A DNA stretch of 64,000 nucleotides from Candidatus Gastranaerophilales bacterium. GTDB lineage: Bacteria > Cyanobacteriota > Vampirovibrionia > Gastranaerophilales > Gastranaerophilaceae. Under the pieces are notes generated by a model. It saw nothing but the letters and a program-made list of their open reading frames with translations. It made no database searches and was not told where the DNA came from. The position numbers and the translations under genes are program-made. The stretch is taken from contig CALVCA010000005.1 of assembly GCA_944325895.1 (NCBI GenBank), positions 1 through 64,000 of the forward strand, given 5' to 3'. Below are positions 3,657 to 63,871 of the stretch, one piece after another. Within the stretch, counting starts at the first letter, position 1; every line of letters begins with the position of its first letter.

Positions 3657-5108
3657 ATGAAAGTAGAAAGTGTAAACAATAGTATTAGCAGGCTAAAACA
3701 GCCGAATTTTAAAGGGCAAGGCATTGATGTCACCAAATTTATAAGAAATAATTTGGCAGGAAAAAAGTTTTTTAACACATTTGATAAAGTAAATGCAATA
3801 AAAGGAGAGATTGGCGGGATTGTAATAAACTCAATCGGAACAGGTGCAGTGGCTCCGATAGTAATCGGAACAAACCCGTTCGTAAAAGCTCCTAAAGGTG
3901 CATCAGAAGAAGAAAAGAAAAAAGTAAAAGATACAAAATGGTATACGGCAATGCGTCAGCCGATTTCGGCAATTTTGGCGGTATTGTTCCAGGTAGGTGC
4001 ACTTGTTCCTATTAACAAGTGGATTGATAGATTGTTCAATGACCCTGAGTTGGCAAAATATGCCGATTTACATATTAATCAGAGTGTATTGAACAGTAAT
4101 ATGACATTAAAAAGCAAAGCTAAAGCTCAATTAGCCAAGGAAGGTATTAAAAAACCGGCATTTTGGAGTCAAGACAAACAAGCTAAGAAAGATTATAAAG
4201 CTCAAATAAAAGCTTTAGCTGATAAGATTGGTGCAAAACAGATAGATGATTTAACCGACAGTTTTGAGCAGACCGGAAAAATTAAAATCGGTAATGAATA
4301 TTTAGACAATAAGTCACTCGGTAAAATCATAAACAAACAAATTGACGGTTATATAGGTGCAGCTAAGGAATTGAAGTTAGACAACGATAAATTAACTTTC
4401 TATACAAACCGTTCAAAAGTTCTGACGGATAATGAAGATTATATAAGACAAATCTTTGATGAGAATGTTTTGAAAACAAAAATGAAAAACGATACCGATT
4501 ATGCTGGTTTGGAAAAATATATCAAAGAATTGCTGTCAAAAGAACAAAAACCTGAGATGAAAGAAATCTTGCAGGAAATGTTGGACAGACCTGAAGATGT
4601 CAGATTAAACAGAATTCACAATACTCTTAATCGTATTGATTCAATAAAATCAGTTTGCGGCAATGAGTATAAGCAAAGTCAGTACTTTAAGTCCATGACC
4701 GACAGAAATGCCGAGCTTGATAAAATAATTACTAAATTTACAAACGCTAAATTGGATACGAAAAAACCGATTGATGATAATTTAATCAAATCAACAATGG
4801 ATGAAATTAAGAAAGTATGTTCGTACAAAGAAGATAATAAATTCTTGAAAGGAATACTTCACGATACGGATACATTTGATTCAAATATCGCAAAACTCAG
4901 TAAAAAGATACATAAAGATGTGGTAAAAGGTTATAAAAAATTCGTATCAAATAAATTTACGGCAATAAGCCAAATCATCCAAATTCTTATAGGTGTAGGT
5001 ATCACGTTACCGATAACCTGCAACGCATTGAACTGGGTATACCCGAGGGCAATGGAGTTATTCTTCCCGAAATTGTCAGGAGTTAAAAAAGCGGGAGGTG
5101 ACAAATAA
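3657..5108 (+). CDS. Lineage-type membrane-associated hypothetical protein (483 aa)
   Basis: No known domain recognised. The N-terminus (MKVESVNNSISRLKQ, then NFKG) resembles the short N-terminal segment of other proteins here that lack signal peptides. Hydrophobic stretches lie near residues 50-70 (glycine-rich) and 100-125, and a further one near 440-470. Between them is a long lysine-rich, probably helical region (about 140-430). GAAGG precedes the ATG. Its stop shares a base with the ATG of the next gene, and GGGAGGTGA lies just before that start, so the two are co-translated. Possibly a cell-envelope protein; function unknown. Confidence 0.85.
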   Translation: MKVESVNNSISRLKQPNFKGQGIDVTKFIRNNLAGKKFFNTFDKVNAIKGEIGGIVINSIGTGAVAPIVIGTNPFVKAPKGASEEEKKKVKDTKWYTAMRQPISAILAVLFQVGALVPINKWIDRLFNDPELAKYADLHINQSVLNSNMTLKSKAKAQLAKEGIKKPAFWSQDKQAKKDYKAQIKALADKIGAKQIDDLTDSFEQTGKIKIGNEYLDNKSLGKIINKQIDGYIGAAKELKLDNDKLTFYTNRSKVLTDNEDYIRQIFDENVLKTKMKNDTDYAGLEKYIKELLSKEQKPEMKEILQEMLDRPEDVRLNRIHNTLNRIDSIKSVCGNEYKQSQYFKSMTDRNAELDKIITKFTNAKLDTKKPIDDNLIKSTMDEIKKVCSYKEDNKFLKGILHDTDTFDSNIAKLSKKIHKDVVKGYKKFVSNKFTAISQIIQILIGVGITLPITCNALNWVYPRAMELFFPKLSGVKKAGGDK

Positions 5109-27207: not shown

Positions 27208-27406
27208 TTATCTTTCCTTTCACATTTTACGGCAATTAATGACTTTGCCTTTTTGAGGATGTGAGTAATTATTATTTTATCCGAAAAAATTTTATTTGCA
27301 AGCTGTGTTAAAAATTTTCACCTGAATGTAAAAATATGTAACCGAAAACAATTTTTTATTAAAGTTTTAAAAGATTTTTTACGTAAATTTAACAAGAGGT
27401 ATTAGT

Positions 27407-29323
27407 GTGCGGATAAACAGTATAGAAATAAATTTTTATAATACACAAAAGCCAAAAAGCCAAACAAAGCCGGCAGAAAAGCAGGTAAAACCCGATATCA
27501 AGCATTCAAATAATACACCGGAAACCGTTGAAATTCCGGATAAAATACCTGAAGGCAGTCATCTTATCAAAGAAGGTGAAACGCTTTACAGCATTGCCAA
27601 TAAATATAATACAACGGTTGCGGAATTAATAGCATTAAATCCTGATTTACAAACGGACAAAAACGGCAACAAAATTATCAGGCTTGGTGCTGCCTTGAAA
27701 ATTCCTGATATTGTTTCGAAAAAATCTGATGCACCTGATGAAATTCACGGGATTTGGGAAATTGAAGCAGGTAAAGGTGCATATTCAGTTATGACGAAAT
27801 TTAATCTGTTTAGAGAAGAATTAGAAATGTTAAACCCTGATATTGACCTTGATAATATTCAAAAAGGTACACTGTTTAATGTTCCGGGGTATAAAGTAAA
27901 AGAAGGCGACTCATTTTATTCAATTGCAAAAAAACACGGAATTACGGTTAAAATGCTCAAAGAATTAAATCCCGATTTGGGTGAAGTGTTAAATGTCGAC
28001 AGCATAATTAATGTCCCAAAACCTGCCGGAGGCAATTTGACTGTTGAAGAAAAAATTGACAAACATACAATTCAGCAGGGTGAAAATCTTTACAGAATTG
28101 CTCAAAATTACGGGGTGCCTTTATGGGCATTAATGCTTCAAAATAATATAGAGGATGAAACCAAAATTTTCCCCGATCAAGTTTTACAAATTCCGACAAA
28201 AGAACAGATTGAAGCACTGGAACAATTAAAGCCCGAAGATAAAAAAGAAAATTCCGTTGAATATATTGTAAAAAAAGGTGATGTCTTATCTCAAATTGCT
28301 CTTGATAACGGCGTATCTTCAGCAGCTTTAATTTTTAAAAACAATATTCAAGATCCAACTAAAATAATGCCCGGAGATAAAATTATAATCCCTGATAAAG
28401 CGGAGATAGCTCAATTGGAAGCTGAATATAAAAAATCAGTAAAAGCCGTAAATGTTTCATCTCAAAAACAAATTCAGCCTCAGGATGTTATATCTCAAAA
28501 CAGGGGAATTGTAATACATAAAATTAAAAAAGGCGACACAATTGAAAGTATTGCTCAAAAATACGGCATTGCCGCAAAAGATATATCTGTTTATAACCCT
28601 GAGTTAAAAAATATAAAATTTGCCGATGAACTTTTTGAAAAAAATATTAAAAAAATAAATATTGTTGCGACTAAAAAGGCTGTAATTGAGGCAACCGGTG
28701 TCAGCGAAGAATTTATTGATGATTTAATTTCTTTGGAGCAAAAACGCAGCAGGCTTTATAATGATGCCTGTTCAATCCCGACAATCGGAATAGGTCACAA
28801 CACACGTGCCCACAATGATACAAAATACTATAGAGGACGCACTCTTTCGGATAATGAAATTTACAGTCTTCTTGCAAGGGATATAGTTTTAGCACAAAAT
28901 TCTTTAAAAGCAGCCTTGAAAGAATCTTATGAAAATTTAACAATGGAACAAAAAGAAGCTTTGTACGGTTTGAGTTTTAATACCGGTAATTTTACTAACA
29001 GCCCGAAACTAATTCAGGCATTAAAAGAAGGTGATTACAGAGAAGCTGCCTGCCAGTTTGACCATATAGCGGGAACTCAAAACGGAGTACAGGTAGTATT
29101 GCCCGGTCTTGTGAAACGCAGGTTGATGGATATTTCAAAATTTATTTCAGGTTCAGACCTTTCAAAAAAAGATATTGCGTACATAATGGACAAAGTTCAG
29201 CAAATGTATGATAAAGGGTTTGAAAATATAACTAACGATAACACCAAAGTTGACTACAACGCATTTGCCAAAAAATTTATGGGCGAATTTATAGATAGAA
29301 ATTTATTTGAACTTAAATCGTAG
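27407..29323 (+). CDS. Multi-LysM protein with C-terminal GH24 lysozyme domain
   Basis: A 638-aa protein. About six LysM peptidoglycan-binding repeats are seen (near 53-100, 115-160 divergent, 162-204, 219-263, 285-329, 369-410). A phage-type lysozyme domain follows (about 425-590) with the GH24 triad spacing exact: E444, eight residues, D453, five residues, T459. It would cleave the glycan strands. There is no Sec signal peptide; the N-terminus is MRINSIEINF. The start is GTG at 27407 after AAGAGG. A cell-wall hydrolase or an exported weapon; the export route is unclear. Confidence 0.9.
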   Translation: MRINSIEINFYNTQKPKSQTKPAEKQVKPDIKHSNNTPETVEIPDKIPEGSHLIKEGETLYSIANKYNTTVAELIALNPDLQTDKNGNKIIRLGAALKIPDIVSKKSDAPDEIHGIWEIEAGKGAYSVMTKFNLFREELEMLNPDIDLDNIQKGTLFNVPGYKVKEGDSFYSIAKKHGITVKMLKELNPDLGEVLNVDSIINVPKPAGGNLTVEEKIDKHTIQQGENLYRIAQNYGVPLWALMLQNNIEDETKIFPDQVLQIPTKEQIEALEQLKPEDKKENSVEYIVKKGDVLSQIALDNGVSSAALIFKNNIQDPTKIMPGDKIIIPDKAEIAQLEAEYKKSVKAVNVSSQKQIQPQDVISQNRGIVIHKIKKGDTIESIAQKYGIAAKDISVYNPELKNIKFADELFEKNIKKINIVATKKAVIEATGVSEEFIDDLISLEQKRSRLYNDACSIPTIGIGHNTRAHNDTKYYRGRTLSDNEIYSLLARDIVLAQNSLKAALKESYENLTMEQKEALYGLSFNTGNFTNSPKLIQALKEGDYREAACQFDHIAGTQNGVQVVLPGLVKRRLMDISKFISGSDLSKKDIAYIMDKVQQMYDKGFENITNDNTKVDYNAFAKKFMGEFIDRNLFELKS

Positions 29324-48208: not shown

Positions 48209-48493
48209 ATGAGAATAACATCAATACAAAATTTATCTACAAAAAGTATTTCATTTGGTAACAGAGATTTAAATAACATAACTCCTACAGTCGGTCTTTT
48301 ATCTTTGCAAAATTCTGATAAATTGAATTTTGAGAAAAATTTAAGACTGGCTCAAAAAGCCGATGCTGTCCAATCAAACCCCATAAAAGCATTGGCTAAC
48401 AAATTCGTCAAGGCTTATAATATACTGTTTTCAGAAAAACATGAAGCAAGAAGACAAAGTGCCCCATACGTTCACATACCGTATTTGGCATAG
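48209..48493 (+). CDS. Lineage-type small protein (94 aa)
   Basis: Unrecognised. N-terminus MRITSIQNLSTKSISFGN, without a hydrophobic signal, then a basic helical region (ALANKFVKAYNILFSEKHEA) and the tail YVHIPYLA. Strong promoter, strong AAAGGAGG and a terminator at 48534 argue that it is highly expressed as a single-gene unit. The start resembles that of the LysM-lysozyme (MRINSIEINF). Confidence 0.8.
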   Translation: MRITSIQNLSTKSISFGNRDLNNITPTVGLLSLQNSDKLNFEKNLRLAQKADAVQSNPIKALANKFVKAYNILFSEKHEARRQSAPYVHIPYLA

Positions 48494-61020: not shown

Positions 61021-61506
61021 ATGAGATATATCAAAGTTATTATTTTTTTATTTTTATTTATAAGCCCGTGTTTCGGGTCAGATGAAATGCAGAAGCTTTT
61101 TGAGGCAGGTGTTTCAACTCCTATGAAATTTACGAAAGTGCCAAGGGGATTGATAGTAAGTTTTAACGAAGAAATTTTTTTCAACGACGGAGTGGAAAAA
61201 ATCCGTGAAAACAGCACGTGCGTATTAAATCAAATAGCTGATATTTTGAATAAAACAGGAAAAGTCTGTGTTGTAGAGGGACATACCGAAAACGTACGAC
61301 CTGAGATTTCCTGTTACAAATCCAATTGGGAACTTTCACTTGCAAGAGCCAACAATATAACGTTATATTTAATGCGTTGTGCAAATGTAGATCCGGAAAA
61401 ACTTTTTTCCATAGGATACGGGGAATTTATGCCGCTGGATGAAAGAGTTAACAGCAGGATAGATTTTGTAATACTGGATTATGAAAAGAATTTAGGCGAC
61501 AATTGA
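61021..61506 (+). CDS. Exported OmpA/MotB-like domain protein (161 aa)
   Basis: Signal peptide (about 1-19) then a single OmpA_C-type peptidoglycan-binding domain (about 45-155), with VVEGHTENV, NWELSLARANNITLYL and NSRIDFVIL matching the TD-GHTD, LSxxRA and NRRIE patterns. There is no beta-barrel or MotB membrane helix. It may anchor the envelope to peptidoglycan. It overlaps the convergent sigma gene by 15 nt. I use the ATG at 61021 rather than the TTG at 61018. Confidence 0.82.
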   Translation: MRYIKVIIFLFLFISPCFGSDEMQKLFEAGVSTPMKFTKVPRGLIVSFNEEIFFNDGVEKIRENSTCVLNQIADILNKTGKVCVVEGHTENVRPEISCYKSNWELSLARANNITLYLMRCANVDPEKLFSIGYGEFMPLDERVNSRIDFVILDYEKNLGDN

Positions 61507-62319
61507 TTTGCGTAAGCGGGTTGAACGGTTTTCGCTGAGGATATTTTTCAGCTTCATAATACCTTGAGCGTGAAGCTGGCAGACACGTGATTCTGACATA
61601 TTAATAGTTTCGCCGATTTCTTTTAACGTCATGTTTTCTTGATAGTAAAGAACCATTATAATTCGTTCTCTTTCAGGTAATCTTTTCAATGCCCTCTCCA
61701 ATTCCTGTTTAATATTATTTTCTTCGGCTTCTTCCTGCGGGTTACGTTTGTTGGTGTCCTGAATGGTATCAATAATTTCCATACTGTCTTCCGCAGTACC
61801 TTTTTTTTCGTATAAAGAAGTCATGGTCACATCTTCCGACAAAAGCTGGTTAACTTTATCAGGTTCCATGTCAACATATTTGGAAATTTCTTGAGTGGTA
61901 GGTGCCCTGCCAAGCTCTTGTTTAAGATATTCTTGAGCTTCTTTAAGAGTTTTAATTTTTTGTCTGACGCTGCGGGGTAAAAAATCCTGAGCACGTATTC
62001 TGTCTAAAATTGTTCCTCTGATACGTATTAATGCATAGGTTTCGAACCTTGTGTTTTTTTGCGGCGAATACCTTTCTATAGCGTTAATAAGACCTTCAAC
62101 CCCGTATCCTGCTATGTCTTCTATTGAAATCGTTGAAGGAAGCGTTACTTTAACACGTCCTACAACATATCGTATTAAATATATATATTGAACAATTAAC
62201 GCATCACGAGATGCTTTATCAGACTTATCGGATAAATATTTGTTCCAAAGATTTGTTAATTCTTCTTCCGATAATCTTTTTATGTTGTTGTAAGATGTAA
62301 AATCAAAATCTTGACTCAT
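61492..62319 (-). CDS. fliA: Sigma-28 family sigma factor (FliA/WhiG type)
   Basis: A 275-aa sigma factor from this start. Region 2 (RYVVGRVKV, IEDIAGYGVEGLINAIERY, RFETYALIRIRGTILDRIRA) and region 4 (LPERERIIMVLYYQENMTLKEIGE, SESRVCQLH) follow the FliA pattern, with a short region 3 and no region 1. It would direct flagellar or envelope genes. fliI lies divergently upstream. The start is uncertain: ATG 62319 or ATG 62331 are both possible. Confidence 0.88.
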   Translation of the reverse strand: MSQDFDFTSYNNIKRLSEEELTNLWNKYLSDKSDKASRDALIVQYIYLIRYVVGRVKVTLPSTISIEDIAGYGVEGLINAIERYSPQKNTRFETYALIRIRGTILDRIRAQDFLPRSVRQKIKTLKEAQEYLKQELGRAPTTQEISKYVDMEPDKVNQLLSEDVTMTSLYEKKGTAEDSMEIIDTIQDTNKRNPQEEAEENNIKQELERALKRLPERERIIMVLYYQENMTLKEIGETINMSESRVCQLHAQGIMKLKNILSENRSTRLRKSIVA

Positions 62320-62348
62320 TAATCCGCCCATGTTCAATATATTTTAAT

Positions 62349-62377
62349 TCTATACTATATAGCTTTAACTACATCAA
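62349..62377 (-). promoter_or_regulatory. fliA promoter
   Basis: Minus-strand TTGATG (62377-62372), 17-bp spacer, TATAGA (62354-62349). Start near 62342. Confidence 0.55.
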
Positions 62378-62487
62378 CTAAAAAGAGGAAATGAGGAATA
62401 AATCATTTTTTTAGGGGAGAGGAAATTTAAATTCAAGAATTTTATTTGTGTAAAGCTTAACTATAAAACGCTAAATATGTAAACAAT

Positions 62488-62516
62488 TTGTCCGGATTAA
62501 AAAAAAATATTATAAT
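62488..62516 (+). promoter_or_regulatory. fliI promoter, predicted near-leaderless
   Basis: TTGTCC (62488-62493), 17-bp spacer, TATAAT (62511-62516). Start near 62523, 2 nt before the ATG at 62525; no Shine-Dalgarno sequence. Confidence 0.65.
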
Positions 62517-62524
62517 AATTAATA

Positions 62525-63871
62525 ATGAACGATCTTGATATTTCAAAATTGGAAGAATTAAAGTCAAAAGTGCACGAAAAGCTTAATGAAACAGAGCTTT
62601 TCAGATACAAAGGTACTGTATCAAAGCTTTTGGGTTTAACGGTAGAAGTAAAATTACCGGGATTAAAGATAGGTGATTTGTGCTTTATAGAAACGAATGA
62701 CGGGCAGCAAAAGCCTGCCGAAGTTGTTGCGTTTAAAGGAGAGATGGCACAGTTGCTTTTGCTTTTAGACGGTGTCGGAATAGGGCAGGGAAGCCTTGTA
62801 ACATCAACCGGCAGACCGATTATAATTCCTGTCGGCGATTTTTTGCTTGGCAGGCTTATTGACCCGATGGGACAGCCTCTTGACGGCAGACCGCTTAATA
62901 CGGAAGGTGCTCAATGGCGGTCTATTGAAGGACCTCCTCCCGGGCCTTTTGAACGTCCGATTATTACGGAAATGTTTTCAACCGGTGTCAGAGCAATTGA
63001 TTCTTGTATGACAATGGGGTGCGGTCAGCGTTTGGGATTGTTTGCCGGCTCCGGTGTCGGTAAAAGTACTTTACTGGGTATGATTGCGAGAAATTCCGAT
63101 GCGGATGTAAACGTTATGGCTCTAATCGGAGAACGTGGACGTGAAGTTAAAGAGTTTATAGAAGATTCTTTGGGCGAAGAAGGTATGAAAAAGTCGGTTT
63201 TAGTTTGTTCAACAGGCGATAAGCCGCCTTTAATCCGTCAAAAGGCTTTATTGGCAGCAACTGCTGTTTGTGAATATTTCAGAGATCAGGGTAAGAAAGT
63301 TTTCTTGATGACAGATACCGTGACACGTTGTGCCATGGCAGGTCGTGAAGTAGGTTTGGCAACAGGCGAACCGCCTACGATGAAAGGCTATCCGCCGTCA
63401 ATATTTTCGTGGCTGCAAAAAGTTTTGGAACGTGCCGGAAACAGTCCAAAAGGTTCTATTACGGCTTTGTATACGGTTTTGATGGAGGGCGACGATATTT
63501 CCGACCCGATTGTTGATACTGTCCGTGGTATTGTTGACGGGCACATATTTCTGTCAAGAAAAGTCGCCGAAATGAACCATTATCCGGCAATTGATGTTTT
63601 AGGAAGTATTTCAAGGCTTATGTCGGCTATTGCTACACCCGAGCATAAAGAGGCTGCCGGTAAAATGCGTAAAATACTTGCTATGTACCGTGAAAATAAA
63701 GATTTGATTGATGTAGGTATGTATCAGCCGGGTTCCAACCCGAAACTCGATACTGCAATTGAAATGATGCCTCAGGTTAATGCGTTTTTGCAGCAGCGTA
63801 CCTCAGACAGCGTTTCTATGGAAAATACCATAAGCACTTTAATCAATATGATGAAAGATGTTGATATATAA
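62525..63871 (+). CDS. fliI: Flagellar/type III export ATPase FliI-SctN family
   Basis: A 448-aa F1-beta-like export ATPase: N-terminal beta barrel (about 20-90), Walker A GSGVGKST (about 177-184), LIGERGREVKEFI, Walker B FLMTDTVTR, GYPPSIFSWLQKVLERAG and DGHIFLSRKVAEMNHYPAID. It drives unfolding and export of flagellar or injectisome proteins at the inner membrane. FliA next door favours the flagellum. The usual FliH/FliJ neighbours are not within the window. Confidence 0.93.
   Translation: MNDLDISKLEELKSKVHEKLNETELFRYKGTVSKLLGLTVEVKLPGLKIGDLCFIETNDGQQKPAEVVAFKGEMAQLLLLLDGVGIGQGSLVTSTGRPIIIPVGDFLLGRLIDPMGQPLDGRPLNTEGAQWRSIEGPPPGPFERPIITEMFSTGVRAIDSCMTMGCGQRLGLFAGSGVGKSTLLGMIARNSDADVNVMALIGERGREVKEFIEDSLGEEGMKKSVLVCSTGDKPPLIRQKALLAATAVCEYFRDQGKKVFLMTDTVTRCAMAGREVGLATGEPPTMKGYPPSIFSWLQKVLERAGNSPKGSITALYTVLMEGDDISDPIVDTVRGIVDGHIFLSRKVAEMNHYPAIDVLGSISRLMSAIATPEHKEAAGKMRKILAMYRENKDLIDVGMYQPGSNPKLDTAIEMMPQVNAFLQQRTSDSVSMENTISTLINMMKDVDI

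Follow-up and report, generated by a model that had tools for sequence, protein, structure and literature searches.

A LysM-GH24 muramidase of Gastranaerophilales without a Sec signal, and its possible export by a flagellin-less flagellar-type apparatus

Wall hydrolases of cells of the Gram-negative type normally leave the cytoplasm by the Sec route or await a phage holin. The 64,000-nucleotide stretch of Gastranaerophilales DNA analysed here (the window) encodes a LysM-GH24 protein for which a first-pass annotation had reported neither, and which it took to be either an endogenous wall enzyme exported by a non-Sec route or a weapon against neighbours. We asked what kind of enzyme this is, whether it belongs to the chromosome or to a phage, and how it could reach peptidoglycan.

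A GH24 muramidase gene at a fixed chromosomal locus

The gene and its parts are as follows:

27394-27400, + strand: Shine-Dalgarno-like AAGAGGT, at the usual distance from the GTG
27407-29323, + strand: LysM(6)-GH24 muramidase gene, GTG start, TAG stop, 638 amino acids
27407-27442, + strand: conserved N-terminal peptide, residues 1-12 (genus consensus begins MKINNFETNIYI), a candidate export signal
27443-27547, + strand: fast-evolving linker, residues 13-47 (pLDDT below 50 for residues 1-43)
27557-28666, + strand: six LysM units, from Pfam and the AlphaFold model, with borders read from the model
28649-29236, + strand: GH24 (phage-lysozyme fold) domain, residues about 415-610, from Pfam, fold matches and the model
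28736-28738, + strand: codon of the catalytic Glu, E444 (sequence, alignments)
28763-28765, + strand: codon of the catalytic Asp, D453 (sequence, alignments)
28781-28783, + strand: codon of the catalytic Thr, T459 (sequence, alignments)

Pfam assigns LysM to the protein with 181 bits in five stretches, and Phage_lysozyme (PF00959) with 60.7 bits against a cut-off of 22.3. The AlphaFold model (mean pLDDT 79.3, with the GH24 domain mostly well predicted) contains six beta-alpha-alpha-beta units that we read as LysM (approximately residues 51-99, 114-163, 160-204, 218-264, 284-330, and 369-420), so the earlier count of about six holds by structure, whereas Pfam recovers only five. Foldseek matched the GH24 domain to 6et6 (TMt 0.79); lysozymes of prophages and phages, and also SpmX, are among its hits. 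The catalytic residues E444, D453, and T459 are as first annotated, with the E-8-D-5-T spacing, and are invariant in the alignments of 11 genus sequences and of a chosen set of 23; among the long homologues aligned outside that set, G028 has isoleucine for T459 and G024 has cysteine for D453. By score, fold, and triad the protein is a GH24 muramidase in its predicted activity. The GH24 domain has dN values of 0.057 and 0.069 against dS values of 0.79 and 1.39 in two close pairs, indicating strongly purifying selection.

The reported lack of a signal peptide would be overturned by an overlooked start further upstream. The open frame 5′ of the GTG is only 12 codons long and none of them is a start codon, so no in-frame signal peptide has been missed. 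The highest 15-residue hydropathy within residues 1-60 is -0.08, compared with 1.8-2.5 in four signal-peptide proteins from the window that served as controls; by this measure the protein has neither a Sec nor an SAR signal, and none of the genus orthologues has a hydrophobic N-terminus. Among the homologues at large, hydropathy maxima at the N-terminus are at most 1.2 in all 26 signal-less proteins and at least 1.8 in four that carry a membrane segment there (G020, G035, G057, and G064; the anchored homologues), two of which come from one genus. In each of five pairs of genus sequences, the non-synonymous difference is lower for residues 1-12 (0.07-0.21) than for residues 13-47 (0.16-0.50); 12 codons are few. 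By itself, the N-terminus proves nothing about a flagellar-type export route.

All 11 genus orthologues have AGAGG at the Shine-Dalgarno place. Starts placed behind it are all GTG or TTG, with an earlier GTG or ATG additionally present upstream in G002 and G010, and a leader TGTGTAG.AGAGG is common to eight of the 11. Non-ATG starts and a shared leader possibly keep expression low. Phenylalanine stands at position 5 in seven of the 11 genus sequences, and isoleucine in the window's protein. A recognition phenylalanine is known in FlgB/FlgD (PMC9307174). We considered a shared N-terminal “F.G” tag and rejected it, the LysM-GH24 protein itself being without one; as an observation in its own right, the motif [NSI]F.G occurs at residues 10-19 of unrelated signal-less proteins (window positions 3657-5108 and 48209-48493, and several other loci), in modest excess (12 at residues 10-19 against about two per later 10-residue bin).

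A single PF00959 gene was found in the source genome, the one described here, and orthologues are found in 10 of 15 relatives of the same genus. These adjoin a gene for an asparaginase-II-like protein, or in G015 for an MshE-domain protein; the conserved neighbours are these two genes and one encoding a VKOR-DsbA protein. Two genus genomes (G003 and G014) have a different GH24 subtype at that place, and the PF00959 scan gave no GH24 match in the genus genomes G004, G005, and G011. PF00959 is present in 45 of the 99 relatives, and an asparaginase-II-like or MshE-domain neighbour recurs in G025, G028, G032, G035, and G037, and some kb away in G050. Other genera have LysM-GH24 versions of their own, several of them at this locus, and many relatives combine the muramidase with an amidase: an Amidase_3 domain is fused into the unit in G032, G035, and G050 according to Pfam, with units resembling the fused form by eye in G003, G037, and G055, and a separate amidase gene stands just upstream of the GH24 gene in G025 (Pfam) and, by eye, in G014, G016, G022, G054, and G059. 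A scan of genome contigs returned 11 loci, 10 of them nearly complete in length, of which nine carry Gastranaerophilales in their titles and the tenth “uncultured bacterium”; the eleventh is a weak Elusimicrobia match. On these comparisons, the gene is a conserved chromosomal gene of Gastranaerophilales at a fixed locus.

The 11 top-scoring GH24 proteins of relatives (at least 117 bits), presumed to be of phage type, form a separate clade in the tree with support of 97/93 (G069 was left out for its poor domain match), and the anchored G064 is the only homologue that branches beside them. The scan of viral contigs yielded 95 pattern matches and no relative of the protein; phage records match the GH24 core only, with about 30-34% identity over 62-76% of the domain query among the 25 of 49 matches listed. 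We rejected a phage origin on the viral-contig scan, the core-only phage matches, and the tree separation together. The first-pass statement that neither a holin nor a phage gene lies nearby also stands: by eye, we saw no holin, spanin, or virion gene among the window's open reading frames, nor any among the conserved neighbours. In our judgement, the enzyme is very probably endogenous.

Sigma-28-type promoters of signal-less relatives

A putative promoter lies upstream of the gene, and the window also encodes a candidate for the sigma factor that would read it:

27360-27387, + strand: putative sigma-28 (FliA)-type promoter, weakened, TAAAGTTT-N12-TACGTAAA, 12 of 16 consensus matches
61492-62337, - strand: FliA/WhiG-family sigma factor, candidate promoter reader (NCBIfam TIGR02479, 237 bits against a cut-off of 189.6)

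The sigma-28 promoter consensus is TAAAGTTT-N11-GCCGATAA, and the promoter in G003 reads TAAAGATTTCGATTATAATGCCGATAA. The window's promoter has a weakened -10 element, and is matched neither by the strict pattern used across relatives nor by the tighter one used genome-wide.

The strict pattern (TAAAG-N15/16-CCG[AT], within 130 bp upstream), which was composed after inspection of several upstream sequences, was found before 19 of the 25 first genes of signal-less LysM/amidase/GH24 units, the window's gene being counted among the 25; where amidase and GH24 are split between two genes, the score is that of the amidase gene upstream in place of the GH24 gene behind it, and the row for G007 was dropped since its contig starts 32 bp upstream. 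Adding G014 brings the count among signal-less homologues to 20 of 26, with 8 of 10 for the genus subtype and 12 of 16 for the others; the site is missing in the window's gene, G001, G054, G055, G048, and G019. Two further signal-less LysM hydrolases, in G005 and G069, are without a strict site, making 20 of 28 if both are counted. Control values are 11 of 788 control genes, some of them likely true targets, and 19 of 10,000 shuffled upstream sequences. None of the four anchored homologues has the site (20/26 against 0/4, Fisher p 0.008, with rows that are not independent of each other), and G064 may not belong in that set, because it branches beside the phage-type proteins.

Scoring against the literature consensus is a less biased test than the strict pattern, and agrees with it: 10 of 25 signal-less units reach at least 13 of 16 positions compared with 2 of 453 controls, and 23 of 25 reach at least 11 compared with 114 of 453; one of the four anchored homologues (G035, 11/16) passes at 11. 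True-looking hits among the controls precede an FlgF/G-like first gene of an apparatus operon in G072, an apparatus-near protein in G020 and G057 that resembles an HD_5-domain protein of the source genome, a LysM protein without hydrolase domain in G018, and an ASQARLL protein in G025. Across the source genome the tighter pattern gave 11 sites (the reversed control gave none), six of which precede genes for seven proteins; none of these has a Sec-like signal, and Pfam finds an HD_5 domain in one of them and nothing in the other six. The other five gave no fitting target: three have no open reading frame of 60 amino acids within 150 bp, one lies 140 bp before a membrane protein, and one precedes an open frame of another kind. 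We consider sigma-28 control across the LysM-GH24 family quite probable; like our gradings of the endogenous nature of the enzyme and of its mechanism (below), this is a judgement and not a computed value.

Two proteins of 90 and 107 amino acids without a Pfam match are encoded behind a sigma-28-type site at L228 775-1374, and so is a 108-residue protein in G024 (L061 13342-13668) that resembles the 90-residue one. A family of proteins that begin M-G-[LM]-[AS]-A-[GS]-Q-A and have long helices at their ends around a variable middle, a flagellin-like layout with no fold match, is encoded at L229 1559-2785, L037 2024-3715, L061 14713-15951, and L160 11189-12145; sigma-28-type sites precede the members in L229 and L037. 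A 408-residue GQARLL protein had no fold match at E 0.001, its model being of low confidence (mean pLDDT 54.4).

A second, flagellin-less flagellar-type apparatus

The window also contains an export ATPase of flagellar type:

62525-63871, + strand: FliI/SctN-type export ATPase of the second apparatus (TIGR01026, 556 bits against a cut-off of 379.5)

Of the 99 relatives, 94 have members of the FlhA family, which falls into two score classes; the lower class occurs in all 16 genus genomes. Identity of the source FlhA is 75-84% with the second-class FlhA proteins of G020, G041, G057, G064, G069, and G072, compared with 36-39% for flagellar-class FlhA, and the window's FliI is 82-83% identical to the FliI proteins encoded beside the second FlhA in G057 and G020. 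The second set forms a single operon in G064 and G069, in the order two FlgF/G-like genes, flgB, flgC, an SLT-type gene, fliE, fliF, a gene in the FliG position, fliH, and flhA; the operon of G072 has three other genes after fliF. The genes of this operon are present in pieces in the source genome, together with FlhB, FliI, and FliA, giving it FliE, FliF, FliH, FliI, FlhA, FlhB, FlgB, FlgC, and FlgF/G-like proteins. The pieces lie at window positions 61492-63871, L122 5770-11536 (after ribosomal-protein genes), L157 231-2441, L159 15622-16683, and L207 8586-9299.

Against NCBIfam, FlhA, FlhB, FliF, and FliI score below the flagellar and injectisome equivalog cut-offs alike, and FliE, FlgB, and FlgC pass the flagellar cut-offs; the protein in the FliG position has no FliG match in Pfam or NCBIfam. 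Flagellin has no match in the source genome or in 14 of its 15 genus relatives, and the rod-binding domain of FlgJ (PF10135) has none in the source genome or in 13 of the 15. The SLT transglycosylase encoded between flgC and fliE in the relatives' operon is itself signal-less, and its orthologue is present in the source genome. Two proteins, at L163 5540-7009 (489 amino acids) and L164 4646-6097 (483 amino acids), lie at places where matches to the FlhA family are confined to its C-terminal half, and similar half matches occur in many relatives.

Such genes are listed as flagellum-related by Di Rienzi et al. (2013; PMC3787301), who attributed the lack of filament genes in MEL.A1 to genome reduction; PMC5877343 quotes Soo et al. 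(2014) as inferring non-motile cells from incomplete sets. Searches of the open literature listed no title or abstract that describes a type III apparatus of non-flagellar kind in Gastranaerophilales, Melainabacteria, or Vampirovibrionia. We tentatively entertain, as a possibility on the unlikely side, that the second set is a flagellin-less, flagellum-derived machine distinct from the flagellum, with its own FliA-driven signal-less cargo, whose late part would include the LysM muramidase and amidase, and working as a non-motile secretion system. If so, the incomplete flagella of gut Gastranaerophilales would at least in part be a separate working machine, for which the LysM-GH24 gene would name one testable cargo.

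Among the loci listed, the LysM-GH24 gene is not directly beside apparatus genes, and the nearest linkage is in G020, where some 3 kb separate the anchored homologue from a FliG-like gene. We also tried the joint occurrence of enzyme and apparatus as evidence, but since nearly all relatives have the FlhA family it carries no information, and we set it aside.

Candidate export route and role of the enzyme

The reading that we favour, and which we hold to be about evenly poised between right and wrong, is that of an endogenous muramidase of the sigma-28 regulon that would be exported by the flagellin-less apparatus and act on peptidoglycan. The FliA-type factor would switch the gene on together with those of other signal-less proteins; conserved residues 1-12 would be read as export signal by the FlhA/FlhB/FliI apparatus; and the protein would pass unfolded and refold outside the inner membrane. 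The LysM units would then dock on the cell's own wall, binding peptidoglycan that the GH24 domain would cut, opening the wall locally, unaided in most of the genus and together with an amidase in many relatives. Its use would most likely be wall clearance around or after assembly of the second apparatus, or remodelling timed with assembly. The promoter found in most signal-less relatives hints at a flagellum-like machine without propeller as the exporter, and the SLT gene of the relatives' operons also argues for the route, because a signal-less wall hydrolase there sits inside the apparatus operon. Against it stand the weakened promoter of the window's own gene, the lack of direct linkage to the apparatus, a set of anchored homologues that is small and in part doubtful, and again the operon's SLT, a hydrolase of its own. 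The earlier proposal of an endogenous enzyme that reaches the wall by a non-Sec route fits the fixed locus, the absence of close phage kin, the purifying selection, the four membrane-segment homologues, the sigma-28-type promoter of most relatives, and the export apparatus of the genome. A conserved family without Sec signal or holin, behind a sigma-28-type promoter in many genera, would in this way link an orphan enzyme to flagellar-type export.

An endogenous lysozyme that stays in the cytoplasm is an unlikely alternative. Such an enzyme would accumulate and act only at cell lysis or membrane opening, as an autolysin of programmed or altruistic lysis, perhaps under sigma-28 control; it would agree with the absence of a signal of any kind in the 11 genus orthologues, with the amidase and muramidase combination of relatives, which is what a lysis cassette would carry, and with the non-ATG starts, which (if correctly placed behind the Shine-Dalgarno) would keep a dangerous enzyme low. 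However, no holin-like gene was seen by eye at the locus, the four homologues with a membrane segment point to work outside the membrane, and the conserved N-terminal peptide is left without explanation.

A weapon, that is, an exported effector cutting the walls of neighbouring bacteria, is improbable. A protein without Sec signal whose LysM units would bind foreign peptidoglycan, in a genome with a flagellar-type apparatus that could deliver it, would suit the dense gut community to which the first-pass annotation had pointed; but that annotation's suggestion finds no support at the locus, where the conserved neighbours are the asparaginase-II-like, MshE-domain, and VKOR-DsbA proteins. No small, conserved immunity-like partner was seen by eye beside the gene in five genus genomes including the source, and the genus genomes that have a GH24 gene have a single one at a fixed place, not variable like genes in an arms race.

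We rate as quite improbable a FlgJ-like hydrolase that opens the wall for the rod of the second apparatus. This FlgJ replacement was favoured at first on the absence of PF10135 from the source genome, and a signal-less enzyme linked to sigma-28 in relatives would suit it; it was dropped once the operon's SLT and its source orthologue were found. The enzyme is probably not the rod hydrolase, because the separate signal-less SLT between flgC and fliE already fills that place; moreover, sigma-28 genes are usually late and rod proteins early, and second-class FlhA persists in those three genus genomes that gave no GH24 match. Lastly, a domesticated or decaying prophage endolysin without a present role is very improbable: GH24 is the phage-lysozyme family, and the solved proteins that match it best in sequence are lysozymes plus an endolysin, several of them of phage or prophage origin, but the separate phage-type clade, the viral-contig scan, the low identity to phage records, and the purifying selection all speak against it.

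The LysM-GH24 protein resembles several known systems in part. It shares the fold, the E-8-D-5-T triad, and the predicted muramidase chemistry with GH24 lysozymes and endolysins of phages and prophages (PF00959; PDB 6et6, 9kbs, 8app, 2anv), and differs in its six LysM units, its separate clade, and a setting where nothing of phage type was seen. SpmX is also chromosomal and without Sec signal, and is a membrane-anchored localisation factor. Its muramidase domain (PDB 6h9d) has the GH24-type fold in common with our protein (TMt 0.67-0.73), which in contrast has LysM units and no transmembrane segment near its start. Sigma-28 controls some Campylobacter genes for non-flagellar proteins that leave by the flagellar apparatus. 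An N-terminal sequence directs the export of such proteins (e.g., CiaB and FspA) according to PMC2764114; here the export would be analogous, but the apparatus is without flagellin and the cargo would be a wall hydrolase. FlgJ and the flagellar SLT hydrolases are likewise wall enzymes tied to a rod-type apparatus, FlgJ taking the flagellar route, whereas the LysM-GH24 protein has no PF10135 domain, is neither GH73 nor SLT, and is encoded outside the rod operon; Borrelia BB0259 is reported to use a Sec signal (PMC8517470). LysM muramidases with a Sec signal (e.g., NCBIfam NF004974, PRK06347) share the joining of LysM repeats to a glycan hydrolase; the window's protein differs from them in having no Sec signal and a GH24 catalytic domain, and its match to NF004974 is confined to the LysM part.
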